From a virus, in IMG/VR virus record IMGVR_UViG_3300027759_000426, positions 1-23,685 of that record: a stretch of 23,685 bases of DNA. One strand, 5' to 3'. The translations under genes were made by a program, and so were the position numbers. Of the stretch, positions 4,900 through 18,687 are shown in pieces; within the stretch, counting starts at the first letter, position 1, and each line of letters opens with the position of its first letter. The notes beneath the pieces are model-generated. The model saw nothing but the letters and a program-made list of their open reading frames with translations, did not search any database and was not told where the DNA came from.

Positions 4900-5081
4900 A
4901 AACAGCAGTAGAATGGTTAGTTGAACAACTAATGCCAAAAGTATTAACAGCAGAACAATATTATCATATTGAAAAAGCCAAAGAAATGGAGAAACAACAA
5001 ATAATTGAAGCTAATTGGGAAGCAAGTGAAGATACTGATAGAGCAGAACAATATTATAACAAAACCTTTAAATCAGAATAG
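4896..5081 (+). CDS. MKTAVEWLVEQL-type small phage protein, 61 aa
   Basis: Starts MKTAVEWLVEQLMPKVLTAE and continues as one long amphipathic helix rich in Glu, Lys and Gln (EKAKEMEKQQIIEANWEA), then the tail AEQYYNKTFKSE. From memory, small proteins with this opening occur repeatedly in phages and prophages of Bacteroidota, often in several divergent copies per genome; function unknown. Here one intact copy, one truncated copy (4643) and a related start (5083, MKTAMQELK) lie within 450 bases. Confidence 0.65.
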   Translation: MKTAVEWLVEQLMPKVLTAEQYYHIEKAKEMEKQQIIEANWEASEDTDRAEQYYNKTFKSE

Positions 5082-5082
5082 A

Positions 5083-5349
5083 ATGAAAACAGCAATGCAA
5101 GAATTAAAAGATAAAATTCAACACGCAATAGAACAATTGAATGACGAATTGAATGAGTATAAAGCGGGGTATAAACAATGCTTAATAAACATCCAAAATG
5201 ATATTGATTCTCAAATGTTAGAAATGGAGAAGGAGCAACTTAATGATGCATGTTATGACGGGTATTATCAAGAAGGAATGTATGATACCAAAGCATACTA
5301 TGATAACAAATATAAACAACAATATAAAAAGAATTCCCAAACTAATTAG
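5083..5349 (+). CDS. Hypothetical helical protein, 88 aa
   Basis: I start this gene at ATG 5083 (MKTAMQELKDKIQHAIEQLN) rather than the in-frame ATG 5005, which would overlap the previous gene by 77 bases. The first 55 residues form a probable coiled coil; the tail is tyrosine-rich (YDGYYQEGMYDTKAYYDNKY). The stop codon lies in the left arm of an inverted repeat (5348-5381), so transcription or mRNA decay may be controlled there. Function unknown. Confidence 0.6.
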   Translation: MKTAMQELKDKIQHAIEQLNDELNEYKAGYKQCLINIQNDIDSQMLEMEKEQLNDACYDGYYQEGMYDTKAYYDNKYKQQYKKNSQTN

Positions 5350-5381
5350 TATCCGTAGCAATGTCAATGTTTACGGATACT
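5348..5381 (+). terminator. Inverted repeat after the first gene block
   Basis: AGTATCCGTA (5348-5357) and TACGGATACT (5372-5381) form a perfect 10-bp stem with a 14-base loop right at the end of gene 5083-5349. No T-run follows, so it is either a 3'-stabilising hairpin or a terminator that does not rely on a U tract. It marks the change from gene-dense DNA to the non-coding stretch. Confidence 0.5.
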
Positions 5382-6156
5382 GCAGACAAATACTTGGCAC
5401 GCAACGAATACAAACACATATGCATATGCAAGTATAAGAGATACATATACGTATGCATCAAGTATTGGGTATACATGTAATATCAGTATTTAATTGTATG
5501 CGGGTTCAGCATAAGCCTGGTGTCTATTGTTTTAAATGGGTATCCTATTTTTAGTCCGATACCGCCTAATAAACAGATTCGTGGTTCCGCATGTAACATG
5601 TATTCAGTGTCTAGTATTGAGGTATAGGCATGGTTACCTTTCTTACGGCATCTGCGTATTGTTTACGCGGGGCATAGACTCTTTATCAGACATCCGGATG
5701 TATCTAAAGCCCATACACGCCTAGATGTTCTTAAACACGAACTAAGAGGGTGAAGAGGGAGGCCATAGGATCAGGCTATTTTTAGACGAAATGGCGTTAT
5801 TTTTAGACGAATTCGCCAGGCCTATTTTTAGACGATCGGAATCCGGGTTTTAGACGCAAGCTATTTTTAATGCAACATGTCCTAGTTTTAGACCAATGTG
5901 CGCTGTATATATAGTATATGTGCATGGGTTATTTTTAGACGAAATGGTTCTATTTTTAGTCCAATATGTGGCTTGGGTTCTATTTTTAGGCTATTTTTAG
6001 TGCATATGCCGTTATTTTTAGATGAATTTATCCGATTCGGTTTTAGAAACAACCTCATTTTTAGCACCTTAAGTGCAGGATCGATTCGGTTTACTAGCTA
6101 TACAGAGACCCTATTTTTAGAATGATTGGGCATCTAGGTTTTAGTCTATTTTTAGG
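5382..6156. other. Gene-free stretch with palindromes and TATTTTTAG repeats
   Basis: No convincing gene is seen on either strand; the two short + frames at 5536 and 5898 translate to low-quality, repeat-driven peptides. Palindromes include CATATGCATATG (5417-5428), ATACGTAT (5447-5454) and ACATCCGGATGT (5690-5701). GGTATC (5539-5544) and GATACC (5558-5563) flank the first TATTTTTAG. The rest is occupied by the repeat cluster described separately. Composition is less A-rich than the surrounding genes, so the DNA does not look like decayed coding sequence. A role as replication origin or protein-binding array is the best guess. Confidence 0.5.
5546..6155 (+). repeat. Cluster of TATTTTTAG(ACGAA) repeats
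   Basis: Eleven exact copies of TATTTTTAG start at 5546, 5777, 5798, 5823, 5930, 5951, 5981, 5992, 6013, 6112 and 6147. Weaker versions lie near 5847, 5862, 5883, 6039, 6056 and 6137. All have the same orientation, many continue as ACGAA, and start-to-start distances of 21 (four times) and 11 bases suggest placement on one face of the helix. Resembles iterons or multi-site protein binding arrays in layout; the binding protein is not known. Confidence 0.75.
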
Positions 6157-6209
6157 TTCAACCGTTGCTTTAAGTAGATATCGAAATATTTCTACGGCTG
6201 CGGTTGGAA
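6157..6209 (+). other. Long hairpin after the repeat cluster
   Basis: TTCAACCG (6157-6164) pairs with CGGTTGGAA (6201-6209, one bulged G), enclosing an inner stem GTAGATAT / ATTTCTAC around a short loop. The structure directly follows the last TATTTTTAG copy and precedes the small peptide genes. No T-run follows. It may be a leader structure, a processing site, or an extrudable element of an origin. Confidence 0.4.
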
Positions 6210-6237
6210 TAAGCATTTATTTATCATATTATATGTT

Positions 6238-6330
6238 ATGAGAAGAATGGACTTTATAATGGTAGCAATCTTAACGTTGGTTGTAGCTTTATTAGTAGCT
6301 GCCTATAATTTGATAACAGCCTTACGATGA
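6238..6330 (+). CDS. Tiny membrane peptide, 30 aa
   Basis: MRRMDFIMVAILTLVVALLV followed by AAYNLITALR: a positive N-terminus and one long hydrophobic helix (about residues 6-27). Its stop overlaps the next start (ATGA), pairing it with a second one-helix peptide. Such pairs could act on the host envelope or stabilise a membrane complex, but nothing in the sequence specifies this. Confidence 0.5.
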   Translation: MRRMDFIMVAILTLVVALLVAAYNLITALR

Positions 6331-6431
6331 CTAGCATACGAGCGATACATTTATTGATAGCGGCCGCTGTATTATATACAGTAGTGTCACTAGCATTGAT
6401 ATGGATATTGATTGACACATTGATCGGATAG
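6327..6431 (+). CDS. Tiny membrane peptide, 34 aa
   Basis: MTSIRAIHLLIAAAVLYTVV and a continuing hydrophobic stretch to LIWILIDTLIG, so a single membrane helix with almost no soluble part. It overlaps the preceding peptide gene by 4 bases and is followed immediately by the GC-rich structured RNA region, which may be its 3' untranslated region. Function unknown. Confidence 0.5.
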   Translation: MTSIRAIHLLIAAAVLYTVVSLALIWILIDTLIG

Positions 6432-6575
6432 TCGACGGGGTCCGGGAACAACGCGCTCGAAAGACGCACCCGGCGGATCGGCATTGGATCGCGATATACA
6501 AGGCAGCAGGTTACTCTCTTATCCTAGCTGTCACGACGAACCCGGGTTTCTCTCTTACTCCCGGGTTTTCTTTAT
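6432..6575 (+). ncRNA. Candidate structured small RNA ending in an intrinsic terminator
   Basis: This stretch is much richer in G+C than its surroundings and folds into three hairpins. First, CCGGG / CCCGG encloses an inner stem with a GAAA tetraloop (about 6440-6478). Second, CAGCAGG (6504-6510) pairs with CCTAGCTG (6523-6530, one bulge) around the loop TTACTCTCTTAT. Third is the terminator AACCCGGG / CCCGGGTT, whose loop is TTTCTCTCTTACT. Both of the last two loops carry CTCTCTTA, complementary to the AAGAGAG motif before many downstream start codons. No separate promoter was seen, so it may be a 3' UTR-derived RNA of the small membrane peptides. Confidence 0.5.
6539..6575 (+). terminator. 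Intrinsic terminator with CTCTCTTA loop
   Basis: AACCCGGG (6539-6546) pairs perfectly with CCCGGGTT (6560-6567), followed by TTCTTTATT. It closes the transcript carrying the two membrane peptides and the structured RNA. The 13-base loop is pyrimidine-rich and repeats the CTCTCTTA string of the preceding hairpin. Confidence 0.8.
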
Positions 6576-6606
6576 TCACATGTTATTCACAATTTGCTGT
6601 GTATAA
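6572..6606. promoter_or_regulatory. Three DnaA-box matches
   Basis: TTATTCACA occurs at 6572-6580 and 6583-6591, and TGTGTATAA (TTATACACA on the other strand) at 6598-6606. All match the bacterial DnaA consensus TTATNCACA exactly. They sit between the terminator and the first repeated promoter. TGTGAATAA recurs upstream of two other promoters (8822-8830 and 11492-11500). A host DnaA role in replication start or in promoter control is possible. Confidence 0.5.
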
Positions 6607-6642: not shown

Positions 6643-6674
6643 TTAGGATCGCATTGATTTATTCCTTATCTTTA
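6643..6674 (+). promoter_or_regulatory. Repeated promoter, copy 1
   Basis: TTAGGATC at 6643 and TATCTTTA at 6667-6674, with the same 24-base start-to-start spacing as the other 12 copies. The right half of the palindrome is degenerate here. The upstream element is CAAACATTTCAGCAAAAA. An imperfect leader hairpin AATTAGG / CCTTAATT (6684-6705) follows, then the GAGAGAG motif before gene 6727. Confidence 0.75.
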
Positions 6675-6726
6675 TATTATAGGAATTAGGGAGAGACCTT
6701 AATTTAAAATTTAAAAGAGAGAGATT

Positions 6727-7113
6727 ATGAAAAAAGAAGCAAAAGTAGAATTTGGAATTGAGATTGTTAAGCCATGGAGCACGGCAATGTATGATCACAA
6801 TGAGGCATTGGCAGATGTTGTTAAGGCAAAGGTACACGCATTATGGGTTGCGGCTTATGATGCAGCGGAAGCAGAGTTTGTTGATGAAGATGATTTAGGC
6901 AATGAATTTGCAGATATGCAGTGGGATGGCGCTAGCAGTGAAATGGTTGAGATTCAGAAAGCCATTACATATTATGGATATTCAAACCAGAGCATTGGAG
7001 AGGTTGCAGAGGAAGTTGGTACCACATTAGAAGATATGCCATTATACCAATTAAAAGAATTAGTAGAGGAATTAGACATAAAATTAGATACCGGGTTTGT
7101 TGGCTTTAATTAG
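6727..7113 (+). CDS. Hypothetical acidic protein, 128 aa
   Basis: First gene of the promoter-rich block; the start is fixed by the AAAAGAGAGAGATT motif directly before ATG. The 128-residue protein starts MKKEAKVEFGIEIVKPWSTA and is acidic and helical, with segments such as VVKAKVHALWVAAYDAAEAE and a C-terminal helix YQLKELVEELDIKLDTG. No signal peptide or membrane segment. No recognised family; position and regulation suggest an early, host-interacting protein. A tRNA-like RNA follows 12 bases after its stop. Confidence 0.7.
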   Translation: MKKEAKVEFGIEIVKPWSTAMYDHNEALADVVKAKVHALWVAAYDAAEAEFVDEDDLGNEFADMQWDGASSEMVEIQKAITYYGYSNQSIGEVAEEVGTTLEDMPLYQLKELVEELDIKLDTGFVGFN

Positions 7114-7125
7114 CCAGCAACCTCG

Positions 7126-7244
7126 AGTCGGGTGGCGGAATGGTAAACGCTATGGTAAGTAACTGAATCCTAAAGGCAGCAACCTACTGGCAGTAAGTGA
7201 ACCCATACCAGACGTGGATACAGGTTCGAGTCCTGTCCCGACTT
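7126..7244 (+). tRNA. tRNA-like gene with extra sequence in the anticodon region
   Basis: The ends are those of a tRNA: acceptor stem AGTCGGG (7126-7132) with CCCGACT (7237-7243), a Leu-type D arm TGGCGGAATGGTAAACGC, and a T arm ACAGG / CCTGT around TTCGAGT. CCA-GACG-TGG (7208-7217) could be a class II variable arm. Between D arm and variable arm lie about 55 bases instead of 17. ATGG (7152-7155) and CCAT (7203-7206) could be an anticodon stem enclosing 47 bases. Within these, ACCTA / TAAGT (one mismatch) frames the 7-base loop CTGGCAG, which would give anticodon GGC. Amino acid identity is therefore unclear; CCA is not encoded. It may be an intron-bearing, permuted-looking or defunct tRNA. 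Confidence 0.55.
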
Positions 7245-7340
7245 CAAAACAAAGTTAAAGGGAAGTTAACAAAATAAACCGAGGTGAGTCTGCCATAATA
7301 GAATAGAAATAGTCGGTTATAATTCCCGTAACTTTGTTTG
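7245..7340 (+). ncRNA. Long imperfect hairpin after the tRNA-like gene
   Basis: CAAAACAAAGTTAAAGGGAA (7245-7264) pairs with TTCCCGTAACTTTGTTTG (7323-7340) with little interruption, and an inner TAAACCGA / TCGGTTATA adds a second stem, leaving a central loop of about 30 bases. It could end or protect the tRNA-like transcript, or be an independent structured RNA. The arms also resemble the CAAACAAAGTTG element found upstream of the repeated promoters. Confidence 0.45.
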
Positions 7341-7358
7341 AAAAAAGTTTCGAAAAGA

Positions 7359-7390
7359 TTAGGATCCTATCATTATTATACTTATCTTTA
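7359..7390 (+). promoter_or_regulatory. Repeated promoter, copy 2
   Basis: TTAGGATCCTAT at 7359-7370 and TATCTTTA at 7383-7390. No gene starts behind it before the next promoter, 86 bases further on. Between the two lies a 19-base inverted repeat TTTTTTCAAGTTGAAAAAA (7403-7421). The pair may act as tandem promoters for gene 7496. Confidence 0.75.
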
Positions 7391-7444
7391 TATGACGGGC
7401 TGTTTTTTCAAGTTGAAAAAAGTTCAAACAAAGTTGCAAAAAAA

Positions 7445-7476
7445 TTAGGATCCTAACTTTATTATACTTATCTTTA
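7445..7476 (+). promoter_or_regulatory. Repeated promoter, copy 3
   Basis: TTAGGATCCTAA at 7445-7456 and TATCTTTA at 7469-7476, preceded by CAAACAAAGTTGCAAAAAAA. The leader is very short: gene 7496 starts 20 bases downstream after AAAAGAGAGAT, so there is no room for the leader hairpin seen at other copies. Confidence 0.8.
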
Positions 7477-7495
7477 TTAAAATTAAAAGAGAGAT

Positions 7496-7690
7496 ATGAT
7501 ACAACAACAAATTGAAGCTATTGAAGCAAGATTGGAATTCCTAAAGACGGATACCACAAAATGGGTAAGTGCATTTGCTCAGCCCAACGGATGCACTCCG
7601 TATAACCATGGCAATTACTTTCGCAAGTTGGAGCGTAATAGGCTTAAAACAAAGTTGAAAAGTTTGCAAAAAAAGTTGCTAAAAAATTAG
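7496..7690 (+). CDS. Hypothetical basic protein, 64 aa
   Basis: Starts MIQQQIEAIEARLEFLKTDT after AAAAGAGAGAT. The N-terminal third is a coiled-coil-like helix; the middle has a Trp, Asn and Gly-rich piece (AFAQPNGCTPYNHGNYFRKL), and the end is lysine-rich (TKLKSLQKKLLKN). The lysine-rich tail is encoded by the upstream element of the next promoter, and the TAG stop lies inside that promoter's TTAGG, so tail sequence may reflect promoter selection. No family recognised. Confidence 0.65.
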   Translation: MIQQQIEAIEARLEFLKTDTTKWVSAFAQPNGCTPYNHGNYFRKLERNRLKTKLKSLQKKLLKN

Positions 7691-7718
7691 GATCCTAACT
7701 TTATAAACCTTATCTTTA
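7687..7718 (+). promoter_or_regulatory. Repeated promoter, copy 4
   Basis: TTAGGATCCTAA at 7687-7698 and TATCTTTA at 7711-7718. The upstream AAAGTTGCTAAAAAA lies inside gene 7496-7690, whose stop codon it supplies. The leader contains the perfect palindrome GGGAATATTCCC (7733-7744), then GAGAGAG before ATG 7771. Confidence 0.8.
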
Positions 7719-7770
7719 AGTATTAATAAGAAGGGAATATTCCCACAACATGTTATAAATTGAGAGAGTT

Positions 7771-8166
7771 ATGAAAAAAGTAAGTTTAGCAGAACAGTTG
7801 AATGCATTTGCGTCAGGAAGAATAATTGACAGCGAAGGAGATCAAAATGATTGTTTTAACTTTTATGATTGGTTTTGCAAAGATTCAGCATTGGAGCGCA
7901 AAGCAAACATATTATTCCCTAAGGTAAAAAAGTTTATTGAATCGACTCAAGTTGACATCTTAGATACATATGTGTTTTTTAAAAATAATTGTCCGTCGCG
8001 AGGCCCGTTGTATGACGATTTCCGCATATGTGATGAGAACGGAGTTTTATTCACAGTAATCCCTAAATGTGGCCATTCCGGCAAAGCTGAAATATGGGGA
8101 AAGAATGATTCCGGCAAATTTGAATGCTTAAAGCAAGCCGAAACATTTTCGAAACTTTTCTCCTAA
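7771..8166 (+). CDS. Hypothetical protein, 131 aa
   Basis: Starts MKKVSLAEQLNAFASGRIID directly after TTGAGAGAGTT. A 131-residue soluble protein with several Cys residues (NDCFNFYDWFCKDS, NNCPSR, FRICDENG, PKCGHSG, FECLKQ), which could hint at metal binding, although no regular zinc-finger spacing is visible. It has its own promoter and a long leader, so it is probably made early. The stop (TAA) lies 5 bases before the next promoter. No recognised family. Confidence 0.7.
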   Translation: MKKVSLAEQLNAFASGRIIDSEGDQNDCFNFYDWFCKDSALERKANILFPKVKKFIESTQVDILDTYVFFKNNCPSRGPLYDDFRICDENGVLFTVIPKCGHSGKAEIWGKNDSGKFECLKQAETFSKLFS

Positions 8167-8170
8167 AAAA

Positions 8171-8202
8171 TTAGGATCCTAACTTTATATACCTTATCTT
8201 TA
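8171..8202 (+). promoter_or_regulatory. Repeated promoter, copy 5
   Basis: TTAGGATCCTAA at 8171-8182 and TATCTTTA at 8195-8202, immediately after gene 7771. The leader hairpin is GGGA / TCCC (8216-8229) with an ATG in its loop region, followed by CCGACCTAAAAAAAGAGAG before ATG 8249. Confidence 0.8.
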
Positions 8203-8248
8203 TTAAAATTAAAAAGGGAGATGTTTCCCGACCTAAAAAAAGAGAGTT

Positions 8249-8518
8249 ATGACACACAAGGAATTTAAGTTGACAGTCAAAAATGAAATCCTGGAAGATG
8301 CAGGCTATGAAAGAAAAGCAGTGCATTACCGAATAGGCGACGTAGTTACAGTGGATGAGGTAACATTTGATACGTTGCAATCCGGAGGCACCATTCAGCG
8401 ATACACACAAGAAGGCGCGTTTGCATTTGACAAGTATGACTTTGAGAATGAGGTTGCAGTTACAACCATCACCGTCGATTACAGTATACGTAAATTAGGT
8501 CAAAGAAAACAAAAATAA
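8249..8518 (+). CDS. Hypothetical protein, 89 aa
   Basis: Starts MTHKEFKLTVKNEILEDAGY after AAAAAAAGAGAGTT. An 89-residue, probably beta-rich domain (HYRIGDVVTVDEVTFDTLQS, then FENEVAVTTITVDYSIRKLG) with a basic tail GQRKQK. No membrane segment. It is followed after 5 bases by a 34-residue gene with which it probably shares an mRNA. Function unknown. Confidence 0.65.
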   Translation: MTHKEFKLTVKNEILEDAGYERKAVHYRIGDVVTVDEVTFDTLQSGGTIQRYTQEGAFAFDKYDFENEVAVTTITVDYSIRKLGQRKQK

Positions 8519-8523
8519 GAGAT

Positions 8524-8628
8524 ATGAAAAACGTTAAAGTTTATATTCAGGAATTGATTGACGAAGGCATTATTGCCAAAGAAGTAGCAGACCAGTTAAT
8601 ATTTTTAATTAAAAAAATCGAAAAATGA
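8524..8628 (+). CDS. Small helical protein, 34 aa
   Basis: MKNVKVYIQELIDEGIIAKE followed by VADQLIFLIKKIEK: an amphipathic helical peptide with alternating charges, read after AAGAGAT. Its stop overlaps the next ATG by 4 bases (ATGA), so the two are coupled. A gene this short would be missed by length filters; spacing, ribosome-binding motif and composition support it. Confidence 0.55.
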   Translation: MKNVKVYIQELIDEGIIAKEVADQLIFLIKKIEK

Positions 8629-8813
8629 ACGCATTATCAACAACACAGATCAGAGCAGAAATTGTAGAATTAATTAATGCCGGCACGTTAAATGTACCCA
8701 AAATCATTAAATTCTTTAAAGACTTTCGACCGGGAGCAAATCCAACAACGGTTAAGACAGAAGCAAAAGAATTGGTAGCTGAGGTAAAAGCAATAATTAA
8801 GCGAGGTTATTAA
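8625..8813 (+). CDS. Hypothetical protein, 62 aa
   Basis: MNALSTTQIRAEIVELINAG, then TLNVPKIIKFFKDFRPGANP and a C-terminal helix KTEAKELVAEVKAIIKRGY. A small three-helix protein, overlapping the previous gene by 4 bases. The helices and PxxVKTEAK-type turn look like a compact DNA- or protein-binding bundle, but no known family is recognised. Confidence 0.6.
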   Translation: MNALSTTQIRAEIVELINAGTLNVPKIIKFFKDFRPGANPTTVKTEAKELVAEVKAIIKRGY

Positions 8814-8856
8814 AACCAAATTGTGAATAACTTTTTCAAACAAAGTTGCTAAAAGA

Positions 8857-8888
8857 TTAGGTTTCTAACATTATATTCCTTATCTTTA
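8857..8888 (+). promoter_or_regulatory. Repeated promoter, copy 6 (altered palindrome)
   Basis: TTAGGTTTCTAA at 8857-8868 keeps the outer TTAG/CTAA but loses the centre; TATCTTTA is at 8881-8888. A DnaA-box match TGTGAATAA (8822-8830) lies upstream. The leader hairpin is GGGAA-ATGG-TTCCC (8901-8914). Confidence 0.75.
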
Positions 8889-8932
8889 ATTAAATAAAAA
8901 GGGAAATGGTTCCCGACCTAAAAAAAGAGAGA

Positions 8933-9118
8933 ATGGCAAACATCAAAAAGAATTCCGCATTTTTCCAGCAAGATGCATGTATGGGTAAATTGAGCGCAGA
9001 TGCTCGTAAGCCACAAGAACTTAATGCAATTGTAAGAGCCGGGATGCGCGAAGCAGAACGTCAGCGCATTTATAGAGAAGCTCGTGCTTTATTGGAAATA
9101 CCTCGAATCGTAAGATGA
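8933..9118 (+). CDS. Hypothetical basic protein, 61 aa
   Basis: I start at ATG 8933 (MANIKKNSAFFQQDACMGKL), which follows AAAAAAAGAGAGA; an in-frame ATG at 8906 sits in the loop of the leader hairpin and is less likely. The second half is an Arg/Ala/Glu-rich helix (AIVRAGMREAERQRIYREAR). Its end overlaps the next small membrane peptide gene by 4 bases. No family recognised. Confidence 0.6.
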   Translation: MANIKKNSAFFQQDACMGKLSADARKPQELNAIVRAGMREAERQRIYREARALLEIPRIVR

Positions 9119-9228
9119 TATGTGTTATCCTGCAACTAGTCTTAGCAGCTGCAATACTTGCGGTAGTAGTTGTATCATTAATAATTGCAATTGTAACAAT
9201 CGTAGAATCCCGTAACGGAGAAATTTAA
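9115..9228 (+). CDS. Small membrane peptide, 37 aa
   Basis: MICVILQLVLAAAILAVVVV continuing SLIIAIVTIVESRNGEI: one long hydrophobic helix (residues 2-30) and a short charged C-terminus. ATGA overlap with the gene upstream. It resembles the other single-helix peptides in the window; function unknown. Confidence 0.5.
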   Translation: MICVILQLVLAAAILAVVVVSLIIAIVTIVESRNGEI

Positions 9229-9243
9229 TATTAAAAAGAGAGC

Positions 9244-9432
9244 ATGGAAAAGACATCACAACAACAATTTACATTAGCAACAATACAGTATGTTGAAGAG
9301 CTAATAGCTCAGGGTCGATTTGGCGCGGGACTAGAAGAAGAAGTGGAACTCCAAGTTCGGGATGTAGTCGATATGCTATTGTATCAAGATAAAAAAAGTT
9401 TAAAAAAAGTTACCAAAAGATTAGGATCCTAA
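9244..9432 (+). CDS. Hypothetical protein, 62 aa
   Basis: Starts MEKTSQQQFTLATIQYVEEL after AAAAAGAGAGC. A helical domain (YVEELIAQGRFGAGLEEEVE, then LQVRDVVDMLLYQDKK) followed by a lysine-rich tail SLKKVTKRLGS. The tail is encoded by the upstream element of the next promoter, and the TAA stop forms the end of its TTAGGATCCTAA palindrome, the second such gene-promoter overlap in this block. Confidence 0.6.
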   Translation: MEKTSQQQFTLATIQYVEELIAQGRFGAGLEEEVELQVRDVVDMLLYQDKKSLKKVTKRLGS

Positions 9433-9452
9433 CTTTATAAACCTTATCTTTA
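9421..9452 (+). promoter_or_regulatory. Repeated promoter, copy 7 (drives the sigma factor)
   Basis: TTAGGATCCTAA at 9421-9432 (overlapping the end of gene 9244) and TATCTTTA at 9445-9452. The leader has only a weak TATTAAATTAATA palindrome and CAAAGAGAGTT before ATG 9489. Because the gene behind it encodes a sigma factor, the promoter could be self-activated. Confidence 0.8.
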
Positions 9453-9488
9453 AGTATTAAATTAATAGTTATAAAACCAAAGAGAGTT

Positions 9489-10232
9489 ATGAGAAAAAAG
9501 ATTCATGTAGGAAATGGTGCAATTGTTACCGACGTTGCAAGCACAAGACGTTATGTGCAGGAAATTAAAAAATCAGGATCATTGCTTACCCGGGAACAAG
9601 AAAAGGAAATAGCAATAAAGTCCAGCTCCGGAGATATTCCTTCGCGCAACCGCCTAGTAGAAAGCAATTTAAGATTTGCGATCCAGGTAGCCCGACAATA
9701 TCAGGGAATGGGTTTAGAACTTGAGGATCTGATAGGATTTGCAAATGTAGGATTGTTTGAAGCTGCAGAGCGGTTTGATGCAGAACGCAATGTCAAATTC
9801 ATTACCTTTGCAGTATGGTATATCAGAGCCGAGATACAAAAGGCTTTGAATGATTTATCCCGTACGGTGCGTATCCCATCGCATAGAACCGCTACCGAAG
9901 AGTATGGTACCAAAAGCATATCAACACCAGTAGGCGATTCAGAGAATGCAGAAACATATGCGGATCGATTCTTAGCAGCAGATCCTGTCAAAAGCAACAG
10001 AGAGCAGGCCGATATGATGTTTGATATCAATAGGACCTTATCGCAATTGAAGCCGAGACAAGAAGAAGCATTGCGTCGCAATTATGGGCTAGGATTTGAA
10101 TATGCACAAAGCATGGAACAAATTGGCGAGGAGATGGGAATCACAAATGAGCGTGCACGACAGTTGGTTCGCCAGGCAGAGATCGATTTAGCTAAGGTAC
10201 CCGGCATAAAATTGTTGGAACAATACCTGTAA
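9489..10232 (+). CDS. RNA polymerase sigma-70 family factor
   Basis: A sigma subunit directs host RNA polymerase to promoters. At 247 residues it is shorter than a housekeeping RpoD. Residues about 20-53 resemble region 1.2 (RRYVQEIKKSG...LLTREQEKEIA). Residues 54-130 are region 2, with NLRFAIQVARQYQGMGLELE, the DNA-melting stretch ERFDAERNVKFITFAVWYIR and SRTVRIP. Region 3 is short or altered (131-175). Residues 185-235 are region 4 with the helix-turn-helix EQIGEEMGITNERARQLVRQ. The shape resembles short primary-like sigma factors of Bacteroidota. It lies behind repeated promoter 7 and amid twelve others, so it is the obvious candidate to read them (inference). Start fixed by AAAGAGAGTT before ATG. 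Confidence 0.93.
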   Translation: MRKKIHVGNGAIVTDVASTRRYVQEIKKSGSLLTREQEKEIAIKSSSGDIPSRNRLVESNLRFAIQVARQYQGMGLELEDLIGFANVGLFEAAERFDAERNVKFITFAVWYIRAEIQKALNDLSRTVRIPSHRTATEEYGTKSISTPVGDSENAETYADRFLAADPVKSNREQADMMFDINRTLSQLKPRQEEALRRNYGLGFEYAQSMEQIGEEMGITNERARQLVRQAEIDLAKVPGIKLLEQYL

Positions 10233-10259
10233 CATTTTCAAAACATTTCAGCAAAAAGA

Positions 10260-10291
10260 TTAGGATCCTAACTTTATATACCTTATCTTTA
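10260..10291 (+). promoter_or_regulatory. Repeated promoter, copy 8
   Basis: TTAGGATCCTAA at 10260-10271 and TATCTTTA at 10284-10291, with the ACATTTCAGCAAAAAGA version of the upstream element also seen at copies 1 and 10. An imperfect leader hairpin TTAGG / CCTTAA (10302-10319) precedes AAAAAAGAGAGAAT and ATG 10337. Confidence 0.8.
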
Positions 10292-10336
10292 TATAAGGAA
10301 GTTAGGGAATGCACCTTAATTTAAAAAAGAGAGAAT

Positions 10337-10408
10337 ATGTTAGGAACATGTGTGTATGTAAGTTTATTGTTTAGTGTAGTATTAATCCTTAAATTAATAA
10401 GCAAATGA
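10337..10408 (+). CDS. Tiny membrane peptide, 23 aa
   Basis: MLGTCVYVSLLFSVVLILKL followed by ISK, a single hydrophobic helix with a basic end. It is the first gene behind promoter copy 8, is preceded by AAAAAAGAGAGAAT, and overlaps the next gene by ATGA. The ribosome-binding motif at the usual distance makes it more credible than its length suggests. Function unknown. Confidence 0.5.
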   Translation: MLGTCVYVSLLFSVVLILKLISK

Positions 10409-10533
10409 ATCAGAAAGGAATGTCCCCAAAAGAATTAGCGGCACTAATTGAAGCTAACAACAAATTTGCAGCAATAGTGTGTGTAGCGTGTCTAGCGATA
10501 GATGCATGTATTTATGTTGAACTAAATAGTTGA
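10405..10533 (+). CDS. Small membrane protein, 42 aa
   Basis: MNQKGMSPKELAALIEANNK is a short soluble helix; residues 21-40 (FAAIVCVACLAIDACIYVEL) form a hydrophobic, cysteine-rich segment. Overlaps the previous peptide gene by 4 bases and ends 4 bases before the next ATG, within TTGAGAGT. Likely membrane-anchored; function unknown. Confidence 0.5.
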   Translation: MNQKGMSPKELAALIEANNKFAAIVCVACLAIDACIYVELNS

Positions 10534-10537
10534 GAGT

Positions 10538-10684
10538 ATGAAACCAGAATTGAAAGCCCTAGAAGCAAAAGTGAAAGCCTTAAGACAAGCAATGGAACTA
10601 TTTGATATATTCCAGCAAGACGATGAGGTAGGATCGGCATTGGCCGAAGTAGAAGCAGAGTTAGACAAGTTTAAATTCAAATAA
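10538..10684 (+). CDS. Small coiled-coil protein, 48 aa
   Basis: MKPELKALEAKVKALRQAME continues as LFDIFQQDDEVGSALAEVEA and ends ELDKFKFK. Heptad-like Leu/Ala spacing suggests a dimeric coiled coil. The ribosome-binding motif TGAGAGT overlaps the stop of the preceding gene. Part of a four-gene transcript behind promoter copy 8. Function unknown. Confidence 0.55.
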   Translation: MKPELKALEAKVKALRQAMELFDIFQQDDEVGSALAEVEAELDKFKFK

Positions 10685-10692
10685 AAAAGACC

Positions 10693-10875
10693 ATGAAAAA
10701 ATTTGATCGTTATCAAGCAAATCTTAAATTAGTAGATGACCGAGTTATTAGCTATGCGACTCATGTCGCAACCGTCGACGGTGATACCTTAAGGATATTA
10801 GGTACCTGGAGTCAGACAACTACCAAGCACGTCAATTATGTTGCTGCTCAATTAGGCTTAAAAAAAGTTTATTAA
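10693..10875 (+). CDS. Hypothetical protein, 60 aa
   Basis: MKKFDRYQANLKLVDDRVIS then YATHVATVDGDTLRILGTWS and a C-terminal helix HVNYVAAQLGLKKVY. A small beta-hairpin plus helix domain is likely. It follows AAAAAAGACC rather than the exact GAGAG motif and closes the transcript from promoter copy 8. No recognised family. Confidence 0.6.
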   Translation: MKKFDRYQANLKLVDDRVISYATHVATVDGDTLRILGTWSQTTTKHVNYVAAQLGLKKVY

Positions 10876-10899
10876 AATGCAAACAAAGTTGGTAAAAAA

Positions 10900-10931
10900 T
10901 TAGGATCCTAACTTTATATACCTTATCTTTA
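10900..10931 (+). promoter_or_regulatory. Repeated promoter, copy 9
   Basis: TTAGGATCCTAA at 10900-10911 and TATCTTTA at 10924-10931, with CAAACAAAGTTGG upstream. The leader hairpin ATTAGGGA / TCTCTAAT around ATGG (10941-10960) is the longest of the set; then TTGAGAGAAT precedes ATG 10976. Confidence 0.8.
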
Positions 10932-10975
10932 TTATAAGCAATTAGGGAATGGTCTCTAATTTAAATTGAGAGAAT

Positions 10976-11185
10976 ATGAAAGGATTAGAGTTATTAGTAA
11001 TAGGGGAAGAGTTCAAAGTTCAGACTGCATATGCATCTTATACGAACTTAAAGTTTATGGGATTCATTAATGAGAATGATGGTATTGTATTAGCATCATT
11101 TAGTTCCACAAAGTCGTTCCAACCGAGCCGATTCTTTGACATCACAGTGACAAGCAACCAAGTAATAAGTTCAAAACAAAGTTGA
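10976..11185 (+). CDS. Hypothetical protein, 69 aa
   Basis: MKGLELLVIGEEFKVQTAYA, then SYTNLKFMGFINENDGIVLA and SFSSTKSFQPSRFFDITVTS: alternating hydrophobic residues suggest a small beta-barrel. Sole gene between promoter copies 9 and 10; its last codons and stop fall in the CAAAGTTG element of copy 10. No recognised family. Confidence 0.6.
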   Translation: MKGLELLVIGEEFKVQTAYASYTNLKFMGFINENDGIVLASFSSTKSFQPSRFFDITVTSNQVISSKQS

Positions 11186-11203
11186 AACATTTCAGCAAAA
11201 AGA

Positions 11204-11235
11204 TTAGGATCCTAACTTTATTATCCTTATCTTTA
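11204..11235 (+). promoter_or_regulatory. Repeated promoter, copy 10
   Basis: TTAGGATCCTAA at 11204-11215 and TATCTTTA at 11228-11235, with the ACATTTCAGCAAAAAGA upstream version. The leader has the perfect palindrome GGGAATATTCCC (11251-11262), identical to that of copy 4, then AAAAAGAGAGACA before ATG 11285. Confidence 0.8.
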
Positions 11236-11284
11236 TATTAATAATAAAAAGGGAATATTCCCAAAACAATTAAAAAGAGAGACA

Positions 11285-11488
11285 ATGACTAGAAATCAAA
11301 TTATCAAAGCAGCGTGCAAACTTAGCGCCAAATCATTCTTAGAGTTAATGGACCACAATGGCGTTTTCACAACGATCCTGGACCAGGACAATATATTCGA
11401 TGCCAATGACGGATGCCTCAATGTTGATGTAGAAGGAATGCCGGAAGGCGAATCTTTATTGTTCATCAATGGAGATTTTGCAGATTAA
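11285..11488 (+). CDS. Hypothetical acidic protein, 67 aa
   Basis: MTRNQIIKAACKLSAKSFLE, then LMDHNGVFTTILDQDNIFDA and an acidic end NDGCLNVDVEGMPEGESLLF plus INGDFAD. Single gene between promoter copies 10 and 11, starting after AAAAAGAGAGACA. Acidic, DNA-mimic-like charge is notable in the C-terminal half but the function is unknown. Confidence 0.6.
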   Translation: MTRNQIIKAACKLSAKSFLELMDHNGVFTTILDQDNIFDANDGCLNVDVEGMPEGESLLFINGDFAD

Positions 11489-11526
11489 AATTGTGAATAA
11501 CTTTTTCAAACAAAGTTACCAAAAAA

Positions 11527-11558
11527 TTAGGATCCTATCATTATAATCCTTATCTTTA
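11527..11558 (+). promoter_or_regulatory. Repeated promoter, copy 11
   Basis: TTAGGATCCTAT at 11527-11538 and TATCTTTA at 11551-11558. A DnaA-box match TGTGAATAA (11492-11500) and the following ACTTTTTCAAACAAAGTT are shared with copy 6. The leader hairpin GGCA-ATGT-TGCC (11571-11582) replaces GGGA/TCCC by a compensated pair. Confidence 0.8.
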
Positions 11559-11601
11559 ATTAAATAAAAAGGCAATGTTGCCGAACCTAAAAAAAGAGAG
11601 A

Positions 11602-11994
11602 ATGAAAAAAGAACAATTGATTGCGCAGTTAGAGGGAGTAAAAGTATTATCAACGCAAGTTGACATTGACAAAGTAATTGCACTTATCCAGCAATTAGAA
11701 TCGGAGAAGAAAGGCGGGTTGACACAAGACTTGGCTGAGGAGATTGCTAGCCGCATTGAAAGCTCATTGGAGCGTAATGCATCCGAGTTGGTTGACTGTG
11801 ATAGTGCAGAATTTGAACTAAACTATGACAACCGAGTTGAATTGAGAGCCGCGGATGTTAATGTGTCAGAAATTATGGATTTTGTTACCGACTGCCTAGA
11901 CGAGTTTGTTAAGGCGCAACAAGATGAAGAATTGATTCAAGCAGTGTTAGCAGCAGATACAAATGAGGCTGACGAAGATGAGTCTGAAGAGTAA
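11602..11994 (+). CDS. Hypothetical acidic protein, 130 aa
   Basis: Start at ATG 11602 (MKKEQLIAQLEGVKVLSTQV), which follows AAAAAAAGAGAGA; the in-frame ATG at 11575 lies in the leader hairpin. The protein is highly acidic, with a coiled-coil-like N-terminus, a middle part EEIASRIESSLERNASELVD, and a tail ADTNEADEDESEE. Acidic helical proteins like this can act as chaperone-like or DNA-mimic proteins, but nothing specific is recognised. A repeated RNA element starts at its stop codon. Confidence 0.65.
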   Translation: MKKEQLIAQLEGVKVLSTQVDIDKVIALIQQLESEKKGGLTQDLAEEIASRIESSLERNASELVDCDSAEFELNYDNRVELRAADVNVSEIMDFVTDCLDEFVKAQQDEELIQAVLAADTNEADEDESEE

Positions 11995-12042
11995 ATCATA
12001 TCTCTCAATATGAGTCCCATGGGTCGGCAGAAGTGTCGGCCC
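11990..12042 (+). promoter_or_regulatory. Repeated post-gene RNA element, copy A
   Basis: The 24 bases at 11990-12013, spanning the stop codon, are identical to 13337-13360. They contain the hairpin TCATAT-CTCTCA-ATATGA. A second hairpin follows, GGGTCGGCA (12021-12029) with TGTCGGCCC (12034-12042) around GAAG. No T-run follows, but TAAAAAAG comes shortly after, as in copy B. It separates this gene from 12066 and could control read-through, RNA processing or stability. Confidence 0.6.
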
Positions 12043-12065
12043 TTACGGACGTAAAAAAGAGACCT

Positions 12066-12281
12066 ATGTTAAAAGACGCAATTGCATTATTAAGCCAGTT
12101 CGGATTAGTTGACGGTAACACATTACCGGACTCGACACCGGGCACACAGTATCAATTCAGAAGCTGCACACCAAACCTAATTGTTCCGGCACCTGGCCAG
12201 AAAACAGTTATTACCGGCCTTTTAAAGGATCACGGGTATGTGGTTAAACCATTAGGTACCATGTTAAAACTTAGCAAATAA
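12066..12281 (+). CDS. Hypothetical protein, 71 aa
   Basis: Start at ATG 12066 (MLKDAIALLSQFGLVDGNTL), after AAAAAAGAGACCT; an upstream in-frame ATG (12033) would overlap the hairpin. A helical N-terminus is followed by PDSTPGTQYQFRSCTPNLIV and KTVITGLLKDHGYVVKPLGT, a compact domain with a helix-turn-helix-like feel at the end, though not a convincing one. It probably shares the transcript of promoter copy 11. Confidence 0.6.
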   Translation: MLKDAIALLSQFGLVDGNTLPDSTPGTQYQFRSCTPNLIVPAPGQKTVITGLLKDHGYVVKPLGTMLKLSK

Positions 12282-12305
12282 AATGCAAACAAAGTTGCTA
12301 AAAGA

Positions 12306-12337
12306 TTAGGATCCTAACATTATAATCCTTATCTTTA
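12306..12337 (+). promoter_or_regulatory. Repeated promoter, copy 12 (drives the AAA+ ATPase)
   Basis: TTAGGATCCTAA at 12306-12317 and TATCTTTA at 12330-12337, with CAAACAAAGTTGCTAAAA upstream. The leader hairpin here is TAATAA-GAG-TTATTA (12346-12360), AT-only, then CTGAGAGAGT before ATG 12391. Confidence 0.8.
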
Positions 12338-12390
12338 AGTATAAGTAATAAGAGTTATTATTTAGTTAAACAATTAAACCCTGAGAGAGT

Positions 12391-13338
12391 ATGATGAATG
12401 TGTTTGAGCCTGTCCGAATTAAAGGCAAATTATTCGGGAAGAATGTTAAGAGTGGCGAGATTGCTGCAAAAGGTCTTATAAGAGATATCCAATTGCGCAA
12501 TGCCGAAAAGAATCGAGAAGTATTGTTTGTAGCCACAAATGGTAGAGTAACCCGAATGCCGGGAGTAGAAGCAGGAGTATCGGTCACACCAGCAGCTCCA
12601 ATCAAATTGTCTTTTATGACAGTCAGAGAGGCACGTGACCCACAAGAAATGTTTACCAACTTAGCAAGATTGACAAAGATGGTAGGCAGAGGTATTCAAC
12701 CGAGCTTAGTAGTTACCGGAGGTGCCGGCACGGGTAAGACTCACCTAGTAAAGCAAACCTTATCAGATATGGGCTTAGAAGAGTCAACCGACTTTGTCCA
12801 CTTTAAAGGCCGAGCCACACCGGCGGGTTTGTTTATTACCCTGTATGAGAATAGTGACAAGATAATTGTGTTGGATGATTGTGATTCAGTGTTTAAAGAC
12901 GATGATGCAGTCAATATACTTAAAGGAGCACTTGACAGCTATGACAGCAGAAAGATTAGTTACATTACCTCAAAGTCGCTTAAGGATACATATGGTGCAG
13001 AGATACCACGTCATTTTGAGTTTACGGGTAGGATCATATTCATTAGCAATATTGACCAAAGCAAATTAGATGAGGCGATACGTAGCAGAAGCTTTGTAGC
13101 CGACATTGATATGACGCAGGATCAAATGTTTACCAGGATCGAGCAATTGATGCCCAATATGGAGACACGCATACCAATTGTAGCAAAGGAGCAAGCATTG
13201 CAATTAATGAAAGAATTGAATGCCGAGTTTAATGGATTAGATGTTAACCTCCGCAGCTTTATTAAAGCAGCACGCATATGTGCAATGGGCTTTGATAATC
13301 CTAAAATGATGATAGCGGAACAAATCATCGAAGCATAG
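12391..13338 (+). CDS. AAA+ ATPase
   Basis: An ATP-driven remodelling enzyme. The 315-residue protein has a 100-residue N-terminal part, then Walker A GGAGTGKTH (110-118), Walker B IIVLDDCDS (158-166), a sensor-1-like IIFISNID (215-222) and the arginines of EAIRSRSF (228-235) that could provide the arginine finger. The C-terminal part has LNAEFNGLDVNLRSFIKAAR and resembles an AAA lid. Phages use such proteins as helicase loaders, clamp-loader-like or recombination factors; the exact role cannot be read from sequence. Its own promoter and the post-gene RNA element give it separate control. ATG 12394 is an alternative start. Confidence 0.85.
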   Translation: MMNVFEPVRIKGKLFGKNVKSGEIAAKGLIRDIQLRNAEKNREVLFVATNGRVTRMPGVEAGVSVTPAAPIKLSFMTVREARDPQEMFTNLARLTKMVGRGIQPSLVVTGGAGTGKTHLVKQTLSDMGLEESTDFVHFKGRATPAGLFITLYENSDKIIVLDDCDSVFKDDDAVNILKGALDSYDSRKISYITSKSLKDTYGAEIPRHFEFTGRIIFISNIDQSKLDEAIRSRSFVADIDMTQDQMFTRIEQLMPNMETRIPIVAKEQALQLMKELNAEFNGLDVNLRSFIKAARICAMGFDNPKMMIAEQIIEA

Positions 13339-13389
13339 TAAATCATATCTCTCAATATGAAGGGACCGGCGTCGAAAGGCGTCGGTTTC
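13337..13389 (+). promoter_or_regulatory. Repeated post-gene RNA element, copy B
   Basis: Identical for 24 bases to copy A, again overlapping a stop codon (TAG here, TAA there), with hairpin TCATAT-CTCTCA-ATATGA at 13343-13360. The second hairpin differs in sequence but is equally strong: 12 pairs from 13362-13373 with 13378-13389 around a GAAA tetraloop. TAAAAAAG follows in both copies. Conservation of shape with different stem sequence points to an RNA structure. Confidence 0.6.
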
Positions 13390-13425
13390 CTACTGTAAAA
13401 AAGTGCAAACAAAGTTGGCGAAAGA

Positions 13426-13457
13426 TTAGGATCCTAACATTATAATCCTTATCTTTA
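13426..13457 (+). promoter_or_regulatory. Repeated promoter, copy 13
   Basis: TTAGGATCCTAA at 13426-13437 and TATCTTTA at 13450-13457, with CAAACAAAGTTGGCGAAAGA upstream. The leader hairpin is AAGGG-AAAGG-CCCTT (13468-13482), then TAATAAGAGAGTAT before ATG 13509; TAAGAGAG is the exact complement of the CTCTCTTA loops. Confidence 0.8.
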
Positions 13458-17452: not shown

Positions 17453-18687
17453 TAAAATTAAAACATATATTAACAGAGGCGACTGACAATTTGCTGCAAA
17501 CATTTCCTATAGGATCTAAAAATTTCAATATTGGATATGATTCATCAATGAAAGAACCTGAAACGGGTCTTAATCGCGATACTGTTATTCAGAATTCTGA
17601 TTATGGAGATGGCGATGCTGCTCATAGATCTAGAGGCGGACATTTAGGCATTGATATTTTTGCGCCAAACGGTGAACCCGTAGTAGCACCAGTTACTGGT
17701 ATAGTAATTAAGTCATCTAATCAAGACCGTGGTGCAGGAGGCAAATTTGTTACTATTGATAAAAATGGAATTAGTTTTTATCACGCACATTTAGATCAAA
17801 CATATGTTGAAGACGGTCAAGAGGTAAAAGCTGGCCAATTAATTGGAACATGCGGCAATACAGGAAATGCAGCTGGCACACATCCACATGTACATTTTAG
17901 TATATTTCGTACAAAAGAAGGATATAGTCGTGGATCTATTAATCCATGGCCTAGTTTGCAAAATGTAATGTATAATGTAACAAAATCAGATAAAAATTTA
18001 GATGTTTTACATAAAAAATTGCAAAAATTAGGATTTGATTTAGGCAATGAGCAAAAATTTGGTATTAATGGGCCTAAAACTCAAACTGCATTGATTAAAT
18101 TAAATAAAACATACGATCAAAAACAGCAAACAGGCGGACTTACTAGCAAAATTGCATCATTTTTGTCAAGTATTATTAATTCTGATATTGCACAATCAGT
18201 ATTAGGCAATAACAAATCAAAAGATAAGTCAAGCATACAAAATAATGATGTTGCAACCACCGATATGCCATCGCGTGTTATTTCATTCTTAAAAAATAAA
18301 GGTTTAACTACATCGCAAGCATCAGGAATTGCTGGTAATATGGCAGTTGAGTCCGGATTCGAACCTGATGCAGTTGGCGATAATGGCACTTCATATGGAT
18401 TAGTGCAATGGCACGCTGATAGATGGACTAAATTAAAACAATATTGTGCTAAAAATAATTACGATGTATCGTCTGTTAGCGGACAATTGGAATATTTATG
18501 GTATGAATTAAAATCTAACTCTAGATTGGGATATGCTGAATTAATCAAACAAACAAATCCAAGAGATGCAGCGGAAATATTTGCTAAATATTTTGAGAGA
18601 CCCGCTAATATTTCAATAAAGCGCATGGATAATGCAGAAAACTATTATAACGAATATACAAAAAATGCAGCAGACAAAATTGCATAA
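17449..18687 (+). CDS. Tagged virion peptidoglycan hydrolase: M23 peptidase + binding domain + lysozyme-like
   Basis: Begins with the tag MIKLKHILTE, then three cell-wall modules in 412 residues. An M23 (LytM-like) zinc endopeptidase spans about 55-165: H65-x-x-x-D69 in GGHLGIDIFAPNG, H112-A-H114 and the H147-V-H149 pair in THPHVHF supply the metal and catalytic residues. A peptidoglycan-binding-1-like segment is at about 182-222 (LDVLHKKLQKLGFDLGNEQK). A phage tail-lysozyme domain (Phage_lysozyme2-like) runs from about 272 to the end, with E301 in MAVESGFEPDAVGDNG and SYGLVQWHADRW. It would cleave peptide and glycan bonds during infection or lysis. The tag suggests the enzyme is carried in the particle. 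Confidence 0.88.
   Translation: MIKLKHILTEATDNLLQTFPIGSKNFNIGYDSSMKEPETGLNRDTVIQNSDYGDGDAAHRSRGGHLGIDIFAPNGEPVVAPVTGIVIKSSNQDRGAGGKFVTIDKNGISFYHAHLDQTYVEDGQEVKAGQLIGTCGNTGNAAGTHPHVHFSIFRTKEGYSRGSINPWPSLQNVMYNVTKSDKNLDVLHKKLQKLGFDLGNEQKFGINGPKTQTALIKLNKTYDQKQQTGGLTSKIASFLSSIINSDIAQSVLGNNKSKDKSSIQNNDVATTDMPSRVISFLKNKGLTTSQASGIAGNMAVESGFEPDAVGDNGTSYGLVQWHADRWTKLKQYCAKNNYDVSSVSGQLEYLWYELKSNSRLGYAELIKQTNPRDAAEIFAKYFERPANISIKRMDNAENYYNEYTKNAADKIA

Follow-up and report, generated by a model that had tools for sequence, protein, structure and literature searches.

The stretch of DNA analysed here, called the window (G000), is a freshwater virus record of 23,685 bases. By PHROGs and Pfam matches its products include a sigma-70-family factor and an AAA ATPase, together with an ATP-dependent DNA ligase, a peptidase/lysozyme protein and a Dps-like protein (the label is our reading of phrog_858). 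Upstream of the sigma and AAA genes lies a noncoding region in which a nine-base word, TATTTTTAG, recurs in one orientation. The features of this region and the two genes most relevant to it are:

5348..5381, plus strand: hairpin AGTATCCGTA...TACGGATACT, a perfect 10-nt inverted repeat at the upstream edge of the noncoding region
5546..5554, plus strand: lone leading copy of TATTTTTAG, about 230 bp 5′ of the main cluster
5607..5686, plus strand: conserved noncoding block, with GTGTCTAGTA at 5607-5616 and GGGGCATAGACTCTTTAT at 5669-5686, kept in most of 12 aligned sequences
5777..6155, plus strand: main array, 10 exact copies of TATTTTTAG and near copies in a single orientation, consensus [CT]TATTTTTAGAC[CG]AAT
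6094..6107, plus strand: element C, CTAGCTATACAGAG, between the last array copies
6202..6234, plus strand: promoter-like element D, GGTTGGA-N-TATTAT (TTGGAA, 17 nt, TATTAT)
6238..6330, plus strand: tiny ORF whose translation is 30 aa long and hydrophobic (MRRMDFIMVAILTLVVALLVAAYNLITALR)
6327..6431, plus strand: tiny ORF whose translation is 34 aa long and hydrophobic
6505-6529 and 6540-6566, plus strand: two hairpins, seen in the sequence, with conserved pyrimidine loops
6572 (plus strand), 6583 (plus strand) and 6598 (minus strand), together 6572..6606: three strict DnaA boxes, TTATNCACA
6665..6674, plus strand: -7/-10 element CTTATCTTTA of the first presumed early promoter
9489..10232, plus strand: phage sigma-70-family factor (Pfam Sigma70_r1_2, r2 and r4), 3′ of the array in aligned relatives
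12391..13338, plus strand: AAA-type ATPase (Pfam AAA, E 1.9e-4; phrog_1250), 3′ of the array in aligned relatives

Two further observations concern the window's other contents. At 7126-7244 lies what looks like a tRNA gene, with 47 nt in the anticodon arm that depart from the tRNA model; the Rfam tRNA model scores 41.2 bits when the stretch is searched with lax filters, neither ARAGORN nor a whole-window gathering scan called it, and unusually long tRNA matches also occur at loci L128 and L148. Between 14341 and 17500, ORFs 14341, 14973, 15505, 16184 and 17449 share N-termini like MI[KR]LK..L.E, which we take to be reminiscent of the T4 capsid-targeting peptides cut by the prohead protease.

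Megablast with the window found no near phage record, and T4-like core genes (gp17, gp20, gp21, gp23, gp18, gp41 and gp43) were not found within the window itself. Four near-complete phages that carry the array do, however, encode relatives of T4 gp17, gp20, gp21, gp23, gp18, uvsX, gp41, gp43 and gp44 at 22-39% identity, and G003 has a capsid protein that shares 57.5% identity with its counterpart in Flavobacterium phage immuto and 38% with that of the Far-T4 reference RM378. Because of these capsid matches and core genes we call the group Far-T4-like, and the window is probably a fragment of such a phage, an assignment drawn from the core genes and capsid of its relatives rather than from a tree. 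Coding lies almost entirely on one strand in G002 and G003. Far-T4 phages are reported to be common in fresh and sea water, and the T4 core genes for transcription regulation to be undetected in them, so that their infection cycle may differ (PMC4360716). A Bacteroidetes-type host seems likely for the phages described here, because their presumed early promoters look Bacteroidetes-type (PMC6847099), because immuto infects Flavobacterium, because the window ligase shares 52% identity with the ligase of Cellulophaga phages and because Far-T4 viruses have been tied in silico to marine Bacteroidetes (PMC7198788). A host search in genome contigs gave five matches in five differently named bins, none of them usable. 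As an aside, Microcystis phage Mel-JY01 has promoter-like words, TTG...TATCTTTG and TATATTTG, at about 135.1 kb and at 150.7 kb; these resemble Bacteroidetes promoters, and the Microcystis host record may therefore deserve a check.

Exact copies of TATTTTTAG begin at 5546, 5777, 5798, 5823, 5930, 5951, 5981, 5992, 6013, 6112 and 6147, all on the plus strand, and the only copy elsewhere in the window is at 18449 on the minus strand. The first-pass annotation had described about 17 same-strand repeats, 11 exact and about six near. The 11 exact copies and their single orientation stand, but 5500-6200 holds 16 nonamers that match at seven or more of nine positions, and hence five near copies, including TATTTTTAA at 5862, TAGTTTTAG at 5883 and CATTTTTAG at 6056; there are likewise 16 TTTTAG cores within 5549-6155. 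To say that many copies extend as ACGAA was generous, as TTTTTAGACGAA occurs only three times. Distances of 21 bases, said to occur four times, separate exact neighbours three times, the fourth joining the near copies at 5862 and 5883; the distance of 11 bases occurs once. Such a concentration is far above chance: first-order Markov copies of the 891-base region (n = 2000) hold a mean of 0.067 exact copies and a maximum of 2, and third-order copies a mean of 0.65 and a maximum of 5. That the array has no coding explanation holds up, too. In the ORF listing just two ORFs overlap it (5536-5724 and 5898-6125), neither is among the window ORFs matched in other phages, and we take both for chance and the array to be gene-free as far as can be told. 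The G+C content of the region is 0.36-0.40, compared with 0.27-0.31 in the preceding flank.

Is the same array found in relatives, as it should be if it has a role? The sigma factor, used as a query, matched at 40 loci, 33 at 59% identity or more and seven at 42% or less, with some contigs near-identical to one another. Among the 33, 26 have the TATTTTTAG array, always in the orientation of the sigma gene; two (L149 and L150) have an array of a changed word, TATTTTTCG; and the five without an array (L130, L133, L137, L141 and L144) reach just 0.6-4.4 kb upstream of the sigma gene. The array was not seen at the seven loci of 42% identity or less, including L152 (42%), which is organised differently. 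A profile search with the AAA protein kept 80 loci, 39 of which are covered by array counts. Where identity was at least 61% and at least 6.6 kb lay upstream, 18 of 20 loci have five or more copies of TATTTTTAG, and the other two are L348, on the same contig as L150 and with TATTTTTCG, and L355, with a different repeated word; the contigs of these 20 loci are mostly shared with the sigma set. Six AAA relatives whose identity is 41-53% and whose upstream sequence extends for 9 kb or more (L358, L360, L361, L362, L364 and L365) show no array of these words. Reversed copies are absent from all 36 arrays, near-duplicates included, when the array and 200 bases on each side are searched. The array is thus kept in its position, its orientation and its motif, so that the search among relatives proposed in the first-pass annotation has a positive outcome.

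The motifs are under purifying selection, and the spacers between them drift about like synonymous sites. Between the window and L120, whose sigma factors are 98% identical, substitutions affect 0 of 108 motif positions and 49 of 271 spacer positions, while 18 of 124 fourfold sites differ in three nearby genes (a fourth aligned too little) and two compared noncoding or mixed flanks differ by about 4%. The contrast recurs between L123 and L124 (motif 1/99, spacer 27/215) and between L143 and L146 (0/109 and 60/266), and is weaker between L142 and L146 (7/93 and 46/219), an alignment with many gaps. The consensus [CT]TATTTTTAGAC[CG]AAT comes from 374 TTTTAG cores in 27 arrays, the copies having been picked by that core.

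The distances between copies had been read as one or two helix turns. Adjacent spacings of up to 60 bases (n = 204 in 23 arrays) fall 64 times at 21-22 and 27 times at 11-12, never at 14-16 and once at 26-29, and for all spacings in the 23 arrays R at 10.5 is 0.43 against a null of 0.09. A helix-turn spacing is visible, but it is owed to the 21-22 peak: with spacings of 20-25 left out, the periodicity is not significant (p = 0.16). For that reason we do not lean on helical phasing, and we treat the two-turn spacing as a preference, not a rule.

Several features around the array recur as well. Alignment shows a hairpin like that at 5348..5381 in L120, L123, L142, L143 and L146; it has no T-run and is therefore not a plain terminator. 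The isolated leading copy, 221-231 bp ahead of the cluster, is repeated in L120, L123, L124, L142, L143 and L148. For the downstream elements we used the 31 array loci whose sequence continues for 1.2 kb or more beyond the array: 29 have element C (CTAGCTATACRGAG, with up to two mismatches), element D (GGTTGGA-N17-TATWAT) lies 3′ of the array in 26, the hairpin-loop motif is found in 24, and an early promoter (TTATCTTTA or TTATATTTA) follows within about 1.1 kb in all 31. Some genomes have a few further copies of the element D class away from arrays. The hairpin at 6540-6566, followed by TTTCTTTATT, looks like a terminator; a simple terminator scan with a loop limit of 8 did not call the hairpins at 6505-6566. 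The loops of these hairpins carry CTCTCTTA, complementary to AAGAGAG in the leaders of some early genes, and could serve antisense control. The DnaA-box matches said to adjoin the array are present, but 3′ of it (6572, 6583 and 6598) and not inside; in the segment 3′ of the array, nine of 16 distinct loci have at least one DnaA box and seven have none.

Beyond these elements the early promoters begin. The window has 13 CTTATCTTTA elements, from 6665 to 13457, and none 5′ of the array. Every element of this kind in G001, G002, G003 and G005 (13, 7, 8 and 5, respectively) lies within about 10 kb downstream of the array, as do three of the six in immuto. That these promoters are early is our reading of their place and form. 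In the relatives checked, the array marks the upstream limit of the early region. Most of the 13 near-identical promoters in the window also hold a 12-bp palindrome, TTAGGATCCTAA, between their presumed elements; by its form it resembles the operator of a dimeric regulator.

The position of the array is more constant than its word. L149 and L150 keep C-like and D-like elements around an array that reads TATTTTTCG, with spacings of 11 and 21 bases judged by eye. In immuto, two noncoding clusters of ACCCGTT, mostly 12 bp apart, lie at 66.3-66.9 kb, directly 5′ of early promoters; ACCCG occurs there 15 times on one strand in 800 bases and never reversed, the whole-genome counts being 33 and 30, and the relatives L208, L250 and L324 have the same layout. 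Among the matches listed, a scan for the ACCCGT pattern gave apparently mostly unrelated 12-base repeats, and three loci passed a noncoding filter: L208 and L250, which are immuto-like, and L221, which looks like a coding repeat. Separately, L355 has repeated TATATATAGTATT / TAGTAGTAC at 5040-5400, at the array's place 5′ of the first early promoters. We tentatively propose, as possible rather than probable, that Far-T4-like phages share a master locus that heads the early region, an array of 7-9 bp sites in one orientation whose architecture is fixed and whose word is replaced from lineage to lineage (TATTTTTAG, TATTTTTCG, ACCCGTT, perhaps TATATATAGTATT), the site set co-evolving with its protein; such a locus would represent a phage origin, or a genome-organising site, of a new class.

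What, then, does the array do? Its conservation in position, strand and motif, together with the selection on its motifs, supports a protein-binding array, and we consider it very likely that the copies are one-orientation sites for a sequence-specific DNA-binding protein. Sites in duplex DNA are indicated because the word is under purifying selection, the spacers are neutral, no RNA structure is evident and the word changes coherently between lineages. As to the purpose of the binding, an iteron-like replication origin is our first choice, held with rather less than even confidence, because the array stands at the start of the early region beside a promoter-like element, because many loci have DnaA boxes and because T4 oriE offers a precedent. 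The protein would load head to tail onto the duplex, presumably oligomerising, to form a nucleoprotein complex at the head of the early region, and would coat the array with the help of element C and perhaps of host DnaA. Directly downstream, D, if active as a promoter, would open the DNA or supply a short primer transcript, which could end at the terminator-like hairpin at 6540-6566.

The first-pass annotation had offered an origin, a packaging site or a large binding array and named a switch in GC skew as support for the origin. The binding array gains support from conservation and selection, but the origin stays a candidate, and the skew switch is absent: the raw sign is unchanged through the array and fourfold sites show no step, although coding and transcription on one strand may dominate the skew. 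No AT-rich unwinding segment stands out, the array region being richer in G+C than the preceding flank. None of the ten window proteins scanned with Pfam belongs to a Rep family, although an initiator of an unfamiliar kind, or one encoded elsewhere, is possible; among the ten, only the sigma factor and the AAA protein have to do with DNA or RNA synthesis. The ORFs that G001, G002, G003 and G005 have in common include no convincing candidate for the cognate binding protein, nor do eight G003 proteins compared with PHROGs. A literature search, with subscription journals mostly outside its reach, found no description of this array.

An activator, repressor or silencer could instead fill the array and act on D, on the adjacent early promoters or on both, as a multi-site enhancer or switch. 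We think such transcription control possible but rather doubtful. Of the 31 loci, 26 have D after the array and all 31 have an early promoter no more than about 1.1 kb away, the early promoters cluster solely downstream of it in four near-complete genomes, and at L345 the array, element C and D lead directly into a gene. However, D-type promoters also occur without an array, immuto has an array without D or C elements, terminator-like hairpins separate the array from the first early promoter at most loci, and 10-20 sites are many for a single promoter. Read as RNA, a transcribed array would offer UAUUUUUAG sites to an RNA-binding protein or form a folded noncoding RNA, which we judge very unlikely: the window shows no evident terminator just 5′ of the array, which would allow read-through, and hairpins with conserved loops lie 3′ of the array, but shuffled sequences fold at least as well as the array (z = +0.47), Rfam has no match inside it, the preference for spacings of 11-12 and 21-22 points to duplex DNA, and the immuto array sits between terminator-like hairpins, one upstream and one downstream. 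That the copies are tandem promoter-like or sigma-decoy elements is the least probable reading of all. It is prompted by the likeness of TATTTTTA to the Bacteroidetes -7 element TAHHTTTG, the reported consensus of F. johnsoniae (PMC6847099), and by its standing one base off the phage early element TATCTTTA. Yet a TTG lies 19-25 bases upstream of only 11 of 159 copies (0.07, background 0.11), compared with 46 of 162 early promoters, and tandem promoters were rejected since the array copies are without a -33 element. The AG end, moreover, is nearly fixed (in the 11 exact copies; the 374 cores were themselves picked by AG), the L149 word is TATTTTTCG and the immuto word, ACCCGTT, is unrelated.

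Two further readings concern packaging and DNA partition or condensation. Rings of small terminase might bind the array as a pac site and so mark the start of headful packaging, a less favoured and unlikely reading to which the sets of direct repeats at SPP1 pac, and the spacing of adjacent helix-turn-helix motifs in small-terminase rings at about one turn of B-DNA, nevertheless lend some appeal (both described in PMC4737164). Among the 68 ends of the 34 array contigs, 11 lie within 1 kb of the array, contig ends being a proxy only; these ends, which may be physical ends or products of assembly, are scattered on both sides, some of them inside arrays, as expected of assembly breaks, and in G003 the array at 6.1-6.8 kb is about 54 kb from the relative of gp17 (terL) at 60.3 kb. 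A centromere-like or condensation site comparable to plasmid parC, tubC or parS arrays is highly improbable. Short direct repeats grouped in blocks and filled by a small protein match the geometry described for ParR, TubR and omega (PMC5016525), but the Pfam scan of ten window proteins revealed no partition gene, and the use of such a site in an apparently lytic phage is not obvious. We keep the origin as the preferred role for the binding array. A conserved array at the boundary of the early region is a concrete place for testing how Far-T4 phages begin replication or switch transcription, and since an isolate with an analogous array exists in immuto, testing is possible in a laboratory host, Flavobacterium sp. 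LMO8. The replaced words would permit a search for a co-evolving DNA-binding protein.

How does the array compare with known systems? T4 oriE also belongs to a T4-superfamily phage and has evenly spaced short direct repeats with an early-mode promoter near them, the role of its iterons being described as ill defined (PMC3016281). Near oriE the sole regular repeat that we found is a 12-mer, GTTGAAGGTAAT, recurring about every 24 bp at ~79.4 kb inside gene 5. These repeats correspond to L192 5427-5541, with a 24-base period, and we take them to encode the C-terminal octapeptide repeat of gp5. The T4 12-mer thus lies in coding sequence, whereas our array is noncoding and differs in motif, spacing and gene context; with repeat and context so different, we rejected homology to the oriE iterons. 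Iteron origins of plasmids and of the ICP1 satellite PLE likewise consist of noncoding repeats, and PLE RepA is reported to bind its repeat (PMC7145576), but for our array no adjacent Rep gene was found, its copies are more numerous and its spacers are irregular. In plasmid parC, tubC and pSM19035 parS, too, short direct repeats come in blocks, which a small protein occupies (PMC5016525), but no partition genes were recognised among the ten window proteins scanned, and this phage is apparently lytic. At the pac sites of SPP1 and SF6, too, direct repeats lie close to promoters, and an oligomeric protein binds them (PMC4737164), whereas our array is far from the large terminase gene and the contig ends share no base. 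The array of immuto, detected in this analysis, is analogous. Its word is ACCCGTT, its 12-bp period is near-strict, and we found neither a sigma nor an AAA relative in that phage; yet it occupies the same boundary position, in one orientation and in two clusters, and is followed by CTTATCTTTA early promoters just as the array of the window is.
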